From Candidatus Atribacteria bacterium (lineage in GTDB: Bacteria > Atribacterota > JALVIU01), in NCBI GenBank assembly GCA_027028665.1, contig JALVIU010000333.1, forward strand, positions 1 to 7,989: a stretch of 7,989 nt of DNA. Direction: 5' to 3'. Position 1 is the stretch's first letter. Every line of letters begins with the position of its first letter. Position numbers and translations under genes: made by a program. This document shows positions 2,104 through 7,689 of the stretch, one piece after another. A model generated the notes under the pieces. It did no database searches and had not been told where the DNA came from. It worked only from the letters and a program-made list of their open reading frames with translations.

Positions 2104-2112
2104 AAGGAGGTG
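2104..2112 (+). promoter_or_regulatory. Strong Shine-Dalgarno placed far upstream of any start
   Basis: AAGGAGGTG is a near-perfect anti-SD complement. No ATG, GTG or TTG lies at normal spacing. The nearest ATG is 2127 (16 nt after GGAGG) and the TPR gene starts at 2153. The hairpin at 2113-2144 begins on the very next base. If it folds, this SD is effectively 8 nt from ATG 2153. It may therefore serve the TPR gene through the folded hairpin. Coincidence cannot be excluded. Confidence 0.6.
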
Positions 2113-2144
2113 AAAAAGGGGCACAAATGATTGTGTCCCTTTTT
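2113..2144 (+). terminator. 14-bp hairpin after hppA: intrinsic terminator or SD-juxtaposing stem
   Basis: The left arm AAAAAGGGGCACAA (2113-2126) pairs along its whole length with TTGTGTCCCTTTTT (2131-2144). There is one G-U pair (2121/2136) and the loop is ATGA. The A-run/T-run base is typical of a rho-independent terminator, which would end or attenuate dGTPase-hppA transcription. The T residues are inside the stem, and what follows (ATACTTTTATG) is only moderately T-rich. No clear promoter for the lpt run is seen downstream, so read-through is likely if it does terminate. It could also bring the SD at 2104-2112 next to ATG 2153. Confidence 0.7.
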
Positions 2145-2156
2145 ATACTTTTATGA
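2127..2156 (+). other. Possible 9-codon leader ORF (MIVSLFILL) overlapping the TPR start
   Basis: An ATG at 2127, within the hairpin loop, opens a frame of nine hydrophobic codons closing at TGA 2154-2156. That stop overlaps the ATG of the TPR gene as ATGA, the classical geometry for translational coupling. The only nearby SD-like sequence is AAGGGG (2116-2121, 5 nt upstream); the strong SD at 2104 is 16 nt from GGAGG to the ATG. It may be a chance frame. Translating it would melt the hairpin. Confidence 0.25.
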
Positions 2157-2698: not shown

Positions 2699-3250
2699 AT
2701 GGAAAATGAAAAACTTACAAAGCTTTACCTTTTTATAATATTTATTCTCTCTCTCTCAATTTTCCTTTTTTTATGGCTTTCTCCTTCTGAAGATGAATAT
2801 TCCTATACAGAGGAAGATATCCCGAAGGTAGATGTAAGGGCTGCAAAGATATATGGATTTGATAATGGAAAATTGAGATTCTCTATAGATGCAAATATTA
2901 TTGAGATACCAGACGAAGAAGATATAGCCATATTTAAAGGGATAAAAGAGGGAATAGTATACAGAAATAAAAAGCCTGAGTTTAAAATTAAAGCCCGTGA
3001 AATCAGGATAAATACAAATACAAAAGATGCTTACTTTTTGGGACATGTAATTATTTCAAAAAGTGACACAATTCTAAAGGGGAATTATTTTTTTTGGAGT
3101 GCTAAATATGAAAAACTTACAGGTAAAAAAGGTGTAGAGATTGTAACTGATGATGTGTATATAAAAGGAAGAAATTTCTCCTCTGATGTTAATATGAGGG
3201 ATGTGAATGTGTCAGGAGGGGTATTAGTGAATATATATATTGGAGGATAG
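2699..3250 (+). CDS. lptC: LptC-like LPS export protein, inner-membrane anchored
   Basis: The protein has 183 residues: a single N-terminal membrane segment at about 9-28 (LYLFIIFILSLSIFLFLWL), then an all-beta periplasmic domain. This matches LptC architecture: a bitopic protein that takes LPS from LptFG and passes it to LptA. VRAAKIYGFDNGKLRFSIDA (46-65) resembles the start of the LptC family domain. Turns at GHV (115-117), KGV (144-146) and GGV (173-175) place valines exactly 29 residues apart, the beta-jellyroll repeat. Length is close to the E. coli protein (about 190). The SD is AAAAGGTG (2687-2694), overlapping the TPR stop. LptC diverges strongly between phyla, so the call rests on architecture and on the lptA and lptD neighbours. 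Confidence 0.82.
   Translation: MENEKLTKLYLFIIFILSLSIFLFLWLSPSEDEYSYTEEDIPKVDVRAAKIYGFDNGKLRFSIDANIIEIPDEEDIAIFKGIKEGIVYRNKKPEFKIKAREIRINTNTKDAYFLGHVIISKSDTILKGNYFFWSAKYEKLTGKKGVEIVTDDVYIKGRNFSSDVNMRDVNVSGGVLVNIYIGG
3242..3246 (+). promoter_or_regulatory. Shine-Dalgarno for lptA inside the last lptC codons
   Basis: GGAGG encodes part of the terminal Gly-Gly of LptC and sits 7 nt before ATG 3254. It fixes the lptA start and supports coupled expression of lptC and lptA. Confidence 0.75.
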
Positions 3251-3253
3251 AAA

Positions 3254-3916
3254 ATGAAGAAATATGTTGTATTTGCACTTATTTTCATTATTAGTTTAAC
3301 CCTTTTTGGTTATATAGGATATGGAGAAGAAGAAAAGAAGAAAGAGAAAGTAGTTAGGATCTCGGCCAATACACTTAAATATAATAAAGATGCAGATAGA
3401 CTTGTGGCAAAGGGTAATGTGATAATAGTTCAAGGAGATGTGACCATTAAGGCAGAAGAAGCCGATTTTAATATGAAAGATAAGACAGGTATAATTACAG
3501 GAAATGTAGTACTTGAAAAGAAGGACGTGAATATAAGTGGAGACAAGATGGATGCAGACTTTAACAAAAAGATATATAAATTTGAAGGAGACGTAGTACT
3601 TATTCAGAAAAGAAAAGATAAAAATGGAAAAGAAGAAAAAGTAAAATGGCTATGTAAAGGTCTTACTATAAATGGAGATAAAAAGGACCTCCAGGCAGAA
3701 GGTGGTGTACATATTGAAAAGGGAGATCTTAAAATAGATACAGATAAAGCTCAATACTTTGATAAAGAACAAAAGATCGTACTTACAGGAAATGTGTATA
3801 TAGATCAAAATAATGGAGAGAAATGGATTAAAGGTGATAATGGAGTGATATACCTGGAAGAGGGAGATTTTGAAGTTACTGGTAATGTGGAGAGTGGATT
3901 TAAATTAGGAGAGTAA
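3254..3916 (+). CDS. lptA: LptA-like periplasmic LPS transport protein (OstA repeats)
   Basis: The protein has 220 residues. An N-terminal signal sequence (Lys-Lys, then a hydrophobic run at about 4-22) is followed by a Lys/Glu-rich linker and an OstA-type beta-jellyroll. LptA is the soluble periplasmic piece that links LptC to LptD and conducts LPS. The repeat is unusually clear: G-[NDG]-V recurs at residues 54, 83, 112, 150, 179 and 210. Spacing is 29 residues except where a charged insertion at about 118-131 (KRKDKNGKEEKVK) widens one interval to 38. It is longer than E. coli LptA (185 with signal). A single cysteine, Cys134, is unpaired. The signal-peptidase site is not obvious; cleavage near Gly22-Gly24 is plausible, or the segment may stay as an anchor. 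Gaps to lptC and lptD are 3 and 4 nt. Confidence 0.87.
   Translation: MKKYVVFALIFIISLTLFGYIGYGEEEKKKEKVVRISANTLKYNKDADRLVAKGNVIIVQGDVTIKAEEADFNMKDKTGIITGNVVLEKKDVNISGDKMDADFNKKIYKFEGDVVLIQKRKDKNGKEEKVKWLCKGLTINGDKKDLQAEGGVHIEKGDLKIDTDKAQYFDKEQKIVLTGNVYIDQNNGEKWIKGDNGVIYLEEGDFEVTGNVESGFKLGE
3907..3912 (+). promoter_or_regulatory. Shine-Dalgarno deciding the TTG start of lptD
   Basis: AGGAGA lies 8 nt before TTG 3921. The TTG opens directly into a lysine-plus-hydrophobic signal peptide (MKKVLYFLIIILL), and no ATG in this frame fits as well. The non-ATG start is therefore well supported. Confidence 0.8.
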
Positions 3917-3920
3917 GCTA

Positions 3921-6134
3921 TTGAAAAAAGTCTTGTATTTTTTGATAATTATTTTGTTAATATGCTCCATACCTGCCTTTTCAAAAGAAGAGATAAAATT
4001 TGATGCCCAGAACTTAAGGTTTTCTTTTTCCTCAGGTCTTCTTATAGGAAAGGGAAATGTAGTGTTCTCCTATAGAAATTTAAAACTCTATGCAGATTAT
4101 GCAGAGATAGATATAAATAATAAAAATATCTTTGCAAAGGGCAATGTAAAAATATTTATATTCAAGAAAAAAGGAAAATCAGAAGAAATAGTGGGCAAGG
4201 CAGCATATTATGACTGGAATGAAAACTTTTTCTTTATGGATGATATGCGTATCCATATTTCGGGTGGAAAATTAAAAGGGACGGTATATATAAAGGGGGA
4301 GACCTTAGAGTATAAAGATGAAAAAGGAGGAGAGAAAATAAAGATTATAGATGGGAAGCTTACCACCTGTACATCTTCACCCCCTGCTTATTATTTTGAT
4401 GCACAAAAGATCATGGTTATACCAGGAAAGAGGATATATGCCTGGAATGTTACATGGTATGAAGGAAAGAATAGGATCCTAACATATCCCTATTTTATAA
4501 TTTTCTTAGATAGGCCATATCAGCTTCCCTATGTCCCAAAGGTGGGATATTCAAAAAGTGATGGATGGTACATAAAGAATAGTTTTAATTATTTTGTAAA
4601 TCCTGATTCCTGGGGTACGTTTTCCCTTGATTGGTATTCAAAAAAGGGAATAGGTTATGGGGTAAAACATGAATGGGATAGTGATAATCTTGATACTACT
4701 TTACATCTTTACTATTTTAAATACAAATCAAATGCAAATAGAGACTTTAAGGCAGATCTTACCCTCTCAGATTGGTCTTTGGGGAATTTTGATGGGAAGT
4801 TAACACTCTCTTATAATACCAGTGGAAATATTGAATATACTACAAAGAAGATAAATACTACTCTTTATTTAAAGGGAAATAAAAAACTTCCTTTAGAGTT
4901 AAAGATTACATATACAGGTTCAGGAGAAAGTATAACAGACAATGAGAAGTTTAAAGGAGCACTTTTATATAAGGATAAGTTCTTTAATGAAAAGTTGGGC
5001 GTAGATCTTTCTCTTAAATATACAAATAGTATTTCAAGTAGTGGTTCATCACCTACATTAAATGGCGCCTTGAAACTCTCATATGGGAATCATTCTCTCA
5101 GCTATTTTTATAAAGGAAGCAAAAATGCTCTTACAAATAATATACAGAAATTTAGATATGACTACAAATATGCATTTTCCAAAGAGATAAAAAATAAACT
5201 TACCCTTTATTATGAGGAGAAAAATAAGATAGATTATAAATATGCAGATACATATATGAAGGCAGAACATACAACTACCTATAAAGACCTTTCTATAGTC
5301 TTTAGTAAGTATTTTGATACAGATGGTCCTTTCTTTCAAGGAGATGAAAATTTTAATTTTGTAGAAAAATTACCTGAGATAAAATATGCACCTTCTACAA
5401 AAAATTTGGGAAAGACCTCTCTTAAATATAAATATACCCTTATTGCAGGTAATTATAATGACCTAAAGAATGACCTGAATGCACAGAGATATGGGGCTAC
5501 TTTGAGTCTTCAGAGTAGTATAAAGATGGGGGATTTTAATTTTACCTATATACTGGACGGAGGGAAATATACATACAGTACAGGTGATTATCTGGGTTAT
5601 TATGGTGGGGAACTAAAATTAAAGGGGAATATCGCACCAAAGATCACAATGGAGACAACATATAAACAAAAAGAGGTAGATGGGAAGACCCCCTTCTCTT
5701 TTGATAATATATCCCCTGCAAAAAATCTTTCTGTCTCTTTTAAATCTCGGATGGATACCTTGAAATTTAGTATTACAGGGGGATATGATTATATCGGAAA
5801 AAAGTATAAAAAATTGGTAGGAAGTATTGCATATGAGCCGAATTCTTCCTTTAAATCATCATTTAAATTTGGATATGATCTAAACAAAGGAAAGTGGACA
5901 AAGCTTACAGGAAATATAAATACTAAGTTAGGTAAAAATTGGAAGATTTCTTACTCTGCTACGCTTTCTTCAGATGATATGAAGATAATAAATAATAAAG
6001 TTGTGCTTACATACGTCCTTCCCTGTGAGCGAGAACTCTCCATATCTTATGATCAGAAAAAGGAGGAATACTGGTTGGAATATAATATACTTGCTTTCCC
6101 ATCCCCTATAATTTCTATAGGTACAGGGAAGTAG
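3921..6134 (+). CDS. lptD: LptD-like outer-membrane LPS assembly protein, TTG start
   Basis: The protein has 737 residues from a TTG start. A signal peptide (about 1-21, predicted cleavage after AFS) leads into an N-terminal OstA jellyroll at about 25-195, with GNV turns at 45 and 74, again 29 apart. The LptD-specific motif GKLTTCTSSPPAYYFDAQKI (145-164) and the join LTYPYFIIFLDRPYQLP (187-203) follow. From about 205 to the end the protein is rich in alternating polar/hydrophobic strands with aromatic residues, as in an outer-membrane beta-barrel. LptD with lipoprotein LptE inserts LPS into the outer leaflet; no lptE is in the window. Besides Cys15 in the signal peptide, only Cys150 and Cys702 exist, placed like the N- and C-terminal cysteines that pair in E. 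coli LptD. E. coli LptD is 784 residues. The barrel sequence is divergent. Confidence 0.88.
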   Translation: MKKVLYFLIIILLICSIPAFSKEEIKFDAQNLRFSFSSGLLIGKGNVVFSYRNLKLYADYAEIDINNKNIFAKGNVKIFIFKKKGKSEEIVGKAAYYDWNENFFFMDDMRIHISGGKLKGTVYIKGETLEYKDEKGGEKIKIIDGKLTTCTSSPPAYYFDAQKIMVIPGKRIYAWNVTWYEGKNRILTYPYFIIFLDRPYQLPYVPKVGYSKSDGWYIKNSFNYFVNPDSWGTFSLDWYSKKGIGYGVKHEWDSDNLDTTLHLYYFKYKSNANRDFKADLTLSDWSLGNFDGKLTLSYNTSGNIEYTTKKINTTLYLKGNKKLPLELKITYTGSGESITDNEKFKGALLYKDKFFNEKLGVDLSLKYTNSISSSGSSPTLNGALKLSYGNHSLSYFYKGSKNALTNNIQKFRYDYKYAFSKEIKNKLTLYYEEKNKIDYKYADTYMKAEHTTTYKDLSIVFSKYFDTDGPFFQGDENFNFVEKLPEIKYAPSTKNLGKTSLKYKYTLIAGNYNDLKNDLNAQRYGATLSLQSSIKMGDFNFTYILDGGKYTYSTGDYLGYYGGELKLKGNIAPKITMETTYKQKEVDGKTPFSFDNISPAKNLSVSFKSRMDTLKFSITGGYDYIGKKYKKLVGSIAYEPNSSFKSSFKFGYDLNKGKWTKLTGNINTKLGKNWKISYSATLSSDDMKIINNKVVLTYVLPCERELSISYDQKKEEYWLEYNILAFPSPIISIGTGK

Positions 6135-7654: not shown

Positions 7655-7673
7655 TTTTTCTTGACAAGAAAAA
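7655..7673. promoter_or_regulatory. 19-bp palindrome covering the -35 box: candidate operator
   Basis: TTTTTCTTGACAAGAAAAA is a perfect inverted repeat: 9-bp arms around a single central A at 7664. The -35 hexamer TTGACA (7661-7666) lies within it. With no room for a hairpin loop, it is better read as a DNA dyad for a dimeric regulator than as an RNA structure. A protein bound here would block RNA polymerase. The regulator is not identifiable; the arms are AT-rich, so chance contributes. Confidence 0.45.
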
Positions 7674-7689
7674 TATTTTGGTGTAAGAT
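7661..7689 (+). promoter_or_regulatory. Sigma-70-type promoter for glutamate dehydrogenase
   Basis: The -35 box TTGACA (7661-7666) is a perfect consensus match. An exact 17-bp spacer separates it from TAAGAT (7684-7689), a 5-of-6 match to TATAAT. The expected transcript start is near 7696, giving a leader of about 50 nt with no obvious riboswitch. It is the only strong promoter seen in the window and it marks a separate transcription unit. Confidence 0.85.

Follow-up and report, generated by a model that had tools for sequence, protein, structure and literature searches.

Closest described systems

Wu et al. (2022, PMC9045158) studied stem-loops that follow binding-protein genes in Ruminiclostridium cellulolyticum. 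These act as internal terminators, differ in efficiency and have U-tracts with a tendency to pair with sequences on the 5' side. Where such terminators with paired U-tracts occur in ABC-importer operons, the upstream transcript is high and the downstream transcript is low (PMC9045158). A hairpin can also act on translation, as in the split ribosome-binding sites of phage T4, where folding shortens the distance between the Shine-Dalgarno (SD) sequence and the start codon from 27 to 11 nt in gene 25 and from 22 to 5 nt in gene 38 (PMC3014915). A third precedent is the STAB-SD of Bacillus thuringiensis cry3A, which has been reviewed (PMC4113751).

Each of these systems shares features with a junction between two genes, hppA and a gene for a TPR-repeat protein, in a Candidatus Atribacteria bacterium (contig JALVIU010000333.1; the whole stretch analysed, here called the window, is 7,989 nt long). 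With a probability of roughly three in four, we read the hairpin at this junction as an element of hppA, either a leaky internal terminator or a stabiliser of the 3' end, through which expression of TPR-lptC-lptA is lowered; it stands beside an orphan SD-like motif.

The hppA-TPR junction

The genes and elements concerned are as follows.

133 to 2100, + strand: hppA, membrane H+-pumping pyrophosphatase, the upstream cistron (Pfam H_PPase, E 3e-278; stop codon 2098-2100)
2104 to 2113, + strand: extended SD-like motif AAGGAGGTGA, 3 nt past the stop codon of hppA and lacking a start codon 3-14 nt on
2113 to 2144, + strand: perfect 14-bp hairpin with loop ATGA, beginning 12 nt past the hppA stop
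2140 to 2152, + strand: U-rich tract TTTTTATACTTTT, past the G-C core, with T at six of the first eight bases
2153 to 2695, + strand: TPR-repeat protein with a hydrophobic segment at its C-terminus (Pfam TPR; ATG start aligned with those of orthologues; no SD of its own)
2699 to 3250, + strand: lptC-like gene (Pfam LptC, marginal at 21.9 bits against a cut-off of 21)
3254 to 3916, + strand: lptA-like gene with an LptA/OstA domain (Pfam LptD_N, E 3e-16)
3921 to 6134, + strand: 737-aa ORF with a TTG start and no Pfam match, in the slot of an LptD-like outer-membrane protein by position alone

The co-directional hppA and TPR genes are separated by 52 nt, which run in the order ATT, the SD-like sequence AAGGAGGTG (2104-2112), the hairpin (AAAAAGGGGCACAA, ATGA, TTGTGTCCCTTTTT) and the eight bases ATACTTTT that lead from the hairpin end to the ATG at 2153. 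The stem consists of 14 consecutive pairs, one of them G-U, and its loop occupies 2127-2130. A preliminary description of this DNA had reported the SD, the 14-bp stem and the 8-nt interval before the ATG, and all of its coordinates were right. It was also correct in stating that the SD lacks a start codon at normal distance and that the TPR gene has no other SD, since the best duplex between the hairpin and ATG 2153 reaches only -1.7 kcal/mol.

The junction RNA has a predicted folding energy of -24.3 kcal/mol, compared to -11.1 +/- 2.5 kcal/mol in dinucleotide shuffles (z -5.3). On the 3' side of the G-C core of the stem lies the tail TTTTTATA, and the gap thereby holds the G-C stem and U-rich tract of an intrinsic terminator; the first five T of TTTTTATACTTTT pair with the 5' A-tract of the stem. 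In the predicted ensemble at 37 C, most bases of the SD are themselves paired (>0.9) with the U-rich stretch that leads up to the ATG, and the SD is therefore not simply free beside the stem. This extension of the fold is weak: 17% of shuffled flanks match it, and SD:anti-SD pairing is stronger. Because shuffled flanks fold equally well this often, we rejected a regulated switch that sequesters the SD. A thermosensor was rejected as well: pairing probabilities drop smoothly with temperature and show nothing specific, leaving the sensitivity to temperature or structure proposed in the preliminary description unsupported.

The TGA at 2111-2113 opens the frame in which ATG 2153 is the earliest start, and we consider ATG 2153 sound because five same-phylum orthologues (41-43% identity) begin with a methionine in the same alignment column. 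Seven TPR orthologues have an ordinary SD and no such hairpin junction. In a set of 50 genomes, from the same phylum and beyond, the TPR orthologues found mostly lie downstream of a gene that we take from its sequence to be guaB (IMP dehydrogenase) and not of hppA; the hppA-TPR junction is therefore not widely conserved, and no second example was found among the relatives in these genomes.

Another explanation would be that the TPR mRNA is leaderless, with a promoter located in the hairpin (TATACT, 2144-2149). Of 53 genes of this genome that lack an SD (for example L160 and L174), 5 have a -10-like box at a distance of exactly 6 nt from the start, as against 0 of 127 genes with an SD, which suggests that some mRNAs lack a leader. 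At the TPR gene, however, the box is 3 nt from the ATG, too close for A2153 to be the transcription start, and the promoter scan yields no -35-like hexamer; a consensus scan found no promoter-like site on the + strand between hppA and ATG 2153. Given the position of the box we rejected this explanation, which we regard as highly improbable. Elsewhere in the window, a strong promoter-like sequence (TTGACA-17-TAAGAT, 7661-7689) precedes the last gene, a member of the Glu/Leu/Phe/Val dehydrogenase family, and suggests that a new transcription unit begins there.

Several further features of the junction were considered. No Rfam family matched in the window. A repeat or mobile element was rejected, as the genome holds no good second copy of the junction; the next-best genomic DNA match (E 0.008) covers 39 bases around the SD motif. 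A 9-codon ORF (MIVSLFILL, 2127-2156) starts at the ATG in the hairpin loop and ends in a TGA that overlaps the TPR start as ATGA. It is probably a chance occurrence, and we rejected it as a real gene given its poor SD spacing and an overlap that could plausibly arise by chance.

A genome-wide class of hairpins behind stop codons

To place the window hairpin in its genomic context, we examined 96 contigs of 3 kb or more, 594 kb in total, from the same draft assembly (90% complete); ORFs were called mechanically and start codons were chosen by simple rules. Co-directional gaps of 20-150 nt number 91 in this sample; 26 of them, the hppA-TPR gap included, contain a hairpin of at least 7 pairs, and in 22 of these 26 the hairpin starts 7-23 nt past the stop codon. 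The 5' arms are mostly purine-rich (median 0.77), many hairpins combine a G-rich 5' arm with an A-tract opposite a T-rich tail, and the number of T in the first eight tail bases ranges from 0 to 7. With its start 12 nt past the stop, its 14 pairs and its six T, the window hairpin is typical of this class. Stems of at least 14 bp number 18 in a 257-kb subset, against about 0 expected by chance, and the window hairpin is thus real yet of a common class.

The class is strongly biased in its upstream genes. Pfam scans identified substrate-binding proteins upstream of 16 of the 25 other hairpin junctions but of only 1 of 25 sampled hairpin-free controls (Fisher p 1e-5), and these binding-protein genes are mostly followed by transporter genes. 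One upstream gene among the other hairpin junctions encodes acyl carrier protein, and hppA itself, unlike the 16, is not a binding-protein gene. Since the context of the class matches that of the internal terminators of R. cellulolyticum, we assign the window hairpin to the upstream gene, hppA. The likeness extends to a gap hairpin after a first cistron in high demand, a U-tract partly paired to a 5' A-tract and co-directional downstream genes, and the same arrangement recurs after the 16 substrate-binding-protein genes of this genome. Here, unlike in R. cellulolyticum, hppA is the upstream gene, its downstream neighbour lacks an SD and an SD-like motif precedes the hairpin; moreover, termination was measured there and is predicted from sequence here. 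We assume from its function that hppA is strongly expressed, and an ion pump placed before lpt-type genes in low demand would fit the setting of an internal terminator. The locus would then extend to an ion pump and LPS transport a mechanism known mainly from ABC-importer operons, and one that this genome appears to use often.

Based on these observations, we propose that the hairpin would form once RNA polymerase has left hppA and that the U-tract would release part of the polymerases, leaving an hppA mRNA protected by the hairpin. The remaining polymerases would read through, such that TPR-lptC-lptA would be transcribed at a lower level, and the TPR gene would initiate at ATG 2153 from a U-rich leader that lacks a classical SD. 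Several hairpins of the class have no U-tract and may act in stabilisation instead of termination, and for this reason the class is perhaps a mixture of terminators and pure stabilisers. As a separate observation on these hairpins, perfect examples of 7-24 bp stand behind substrate-binding-protein genes in all parts of the genome, for example at L109, L127, L138, L194 and L209.

Orphan SD-like motifs

The motif next to the hairpin also recurs. The 10-mer AAGGAGGTGA is present in 21 copies in the genome, and 13 of them have no start codon at 3-14 nt, among them the following.

Orphan AAGGAGGTGA sites (locus: motif position)
L071: 1501
L072: 490
L075: 1501
L076: 247
L077: 1501
L084: 310
L086: 1501

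Orphan copies occur without any hairpin. Several, those listed above among them, lie 52-87 nt upstream of genes for substrate-binding and other transport proteins, most of which have a second, strong SD of their own; the genes concerned, which were partly named from sequence alone, are mostly binding-protein-like, with one permease and one CstA-like gene. Two orphan copies (L072 and L084) are found 1 nt past the preceding stop codon, and the window copy is found 3 nt past one. In leaders, more than 20 nt upstream of starts, AGGAGGTGA appears six times in sense orientation and not at all in antisense, with 0.06 expected. Across 50 same-phylum genomes, the pattern AAGGAGGTGA-N35-65-AGGAGG has about 86 matches, some of which look coding, versus 14 for the reversed control.

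These leaders raise the possibility of a STAB-SD-like system. Applied to the window, this would mean that a 30S subunit bound at 2104-2113 blocks a 5'-3' exonuclease, or that the motif holds post-termination subunits, in either case stabilising the TPR-lpt RNA and playing no positioning role at ATG 2153. The proposal is about the motif alone and can hold alongside an internal-terminator hairpin. As in cry3A, the precedent for such a function, a full-length SD-like motif that is presumably non-initiating lies far upstream of the start and has no start codon at normal distance, and the motif is repeated in the leaders of this genome. Unlike the cry3A element, the window copy is located within an operon, between a stop codon that it directly follows and a hairpin, and its stabilising effect is putative. 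Its 42-nt distance from the ATG is shorter than that of the other orphans, the TPR gene lacks the second SD that a STAB-SD would leave it to use, the hairpin intervenes, and we found no evidence for RNase J or for upstream cleavage. For the window motif we therefore hold this explanation only tentatively, at somewhat less than an even chance. We found no STAB-SD-like system for this lineage in the literature searched, and the recurrent AAGGAGGTGA leaders make one testable here.

A simpler explanation is that the motif is a relic or a chance match in a purine-rich stretch beside the hairpin. AAGGAGG is encountered once per 7.1 kb in sense orientation inside genes, the 5' arms of the hairpins are rich in purines, as noted above, and L172 carries AAGGAGG within a hairpin arm. 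Against this, only 0.06 occurrences of AAGGAGG are expected over the stop-to-hairpin slots of all 26 junctions, where one was found, and the extended motif is placed non-randomly in leaders. We judge a chance or relic origin to be unlikely.

Two adjacent elements or a split ribosome-binding site

The preliminary description had proposed that one hairpin could set both transcription read-through and translation of the TPR gene. The first part of this proposal is supported by the position of the hairpin, its A-tract and U-tract and its upstream-gene context. The second part requires that the hairpin folds out and brings the SD at 2104-2112 to within about 10 nt of ATG 2153, in the manner of T4 genes 38 and 25, while doubling as a terminator. 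The geometry is suitable: as the earlier description had recognised, folding gives near-normal spacing, the distance from the end of AAGGAGG to the ATG being 42 nt in linear RNA and 10 nt once the 32-nt hairpin is discounted. The SD:anti-SD duplex is strong (-14.6 kcal/mol), ATG 2153 is a real start, and the motif that is so rarely expected in a stop-to-hairpin slot occurs at a junction with no downstream SD. As in T4, the SD, hairpin and start codon follow in order, with long linear and normal folded spacing; unlike in T4, the stem is terminator-like and one of a genome-wide class, the predicted fold pairs the SD with a U-rich stretch, and the function of the arrangement is putative.

Several lines of evidence nonetheless argue against a split site. 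An SD is located between the hairpin and the start codon in 23 of the 26 hairpin junctions, and no other junction in the 594 kb sampled has the split-site layout. The three junctions without a downstream SD are the hppA-TPR junction, L114, whose GTG start is doubtful, and L140, in which a binding-protein gene and a hairpin are followed by a permease-like gene with its ATG 10 nt past the hairpin and an SD on neither side. Because L140 apparently initiates in this way, a start right after a hairpin needs no split SD. For comparison, the SD is weaker than -4 kcal/mol in 8 of 65 hairpin-free junctions. The orphan copies of AAGGAGGTGA that have no hairpin and the seven orthologues with an ordinary SD point in the same direction, as does, more weakly given the shuffled flanks, the pairing of the SD in the predicted fold. 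A split ribosome-binding site is accordingly improbable in our assessment, and we consider it decidedly improbable that one and the same hairpin terminates leakily within the operon and bridges a split site, such that only read-through transcripts that keep the fold are translated efficiently. A real split site would give bacteria a counterpart of T4 genes 38 and 25, with one hairpin tying termination to translation.

Since the hairpin belongs to a genome-wide class and the motif also occurs elsewhere without a start codon, the junction is probably a pair of adjacent, ordinary elements and not a hairpin joining a split ribosome-binding site. Alongside the internal terminator, AAGGAGGTGA would be a separate orphan element that probably binds 30S subunits without initiating, in a STAB-SD-like manner. 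One coincidence is unexplained by two independent elements: of the 26 hairpin junctions, only that of hppA and TPR carries an SD motif in its stop-to-hairpin slot, and it is also one of the three without a downstream SD. The other orphan motifs precede genes that have an SD.

Other observations in the genome

A gene on the minus strand of L133 (about 2937, counted on the reverse complement) encodes a protein with the motif TLGCQMNKNDSE and seems to have no ATG, GTG or TTG start; the sole start-like codon after an AGGAGG is ATA. The genome also carries a lysine riboswitch (L131, 4770-4953, minus strand) and a T-box leader (L054, 6611-6797, minus strand), both scoring at or above the gathering score.
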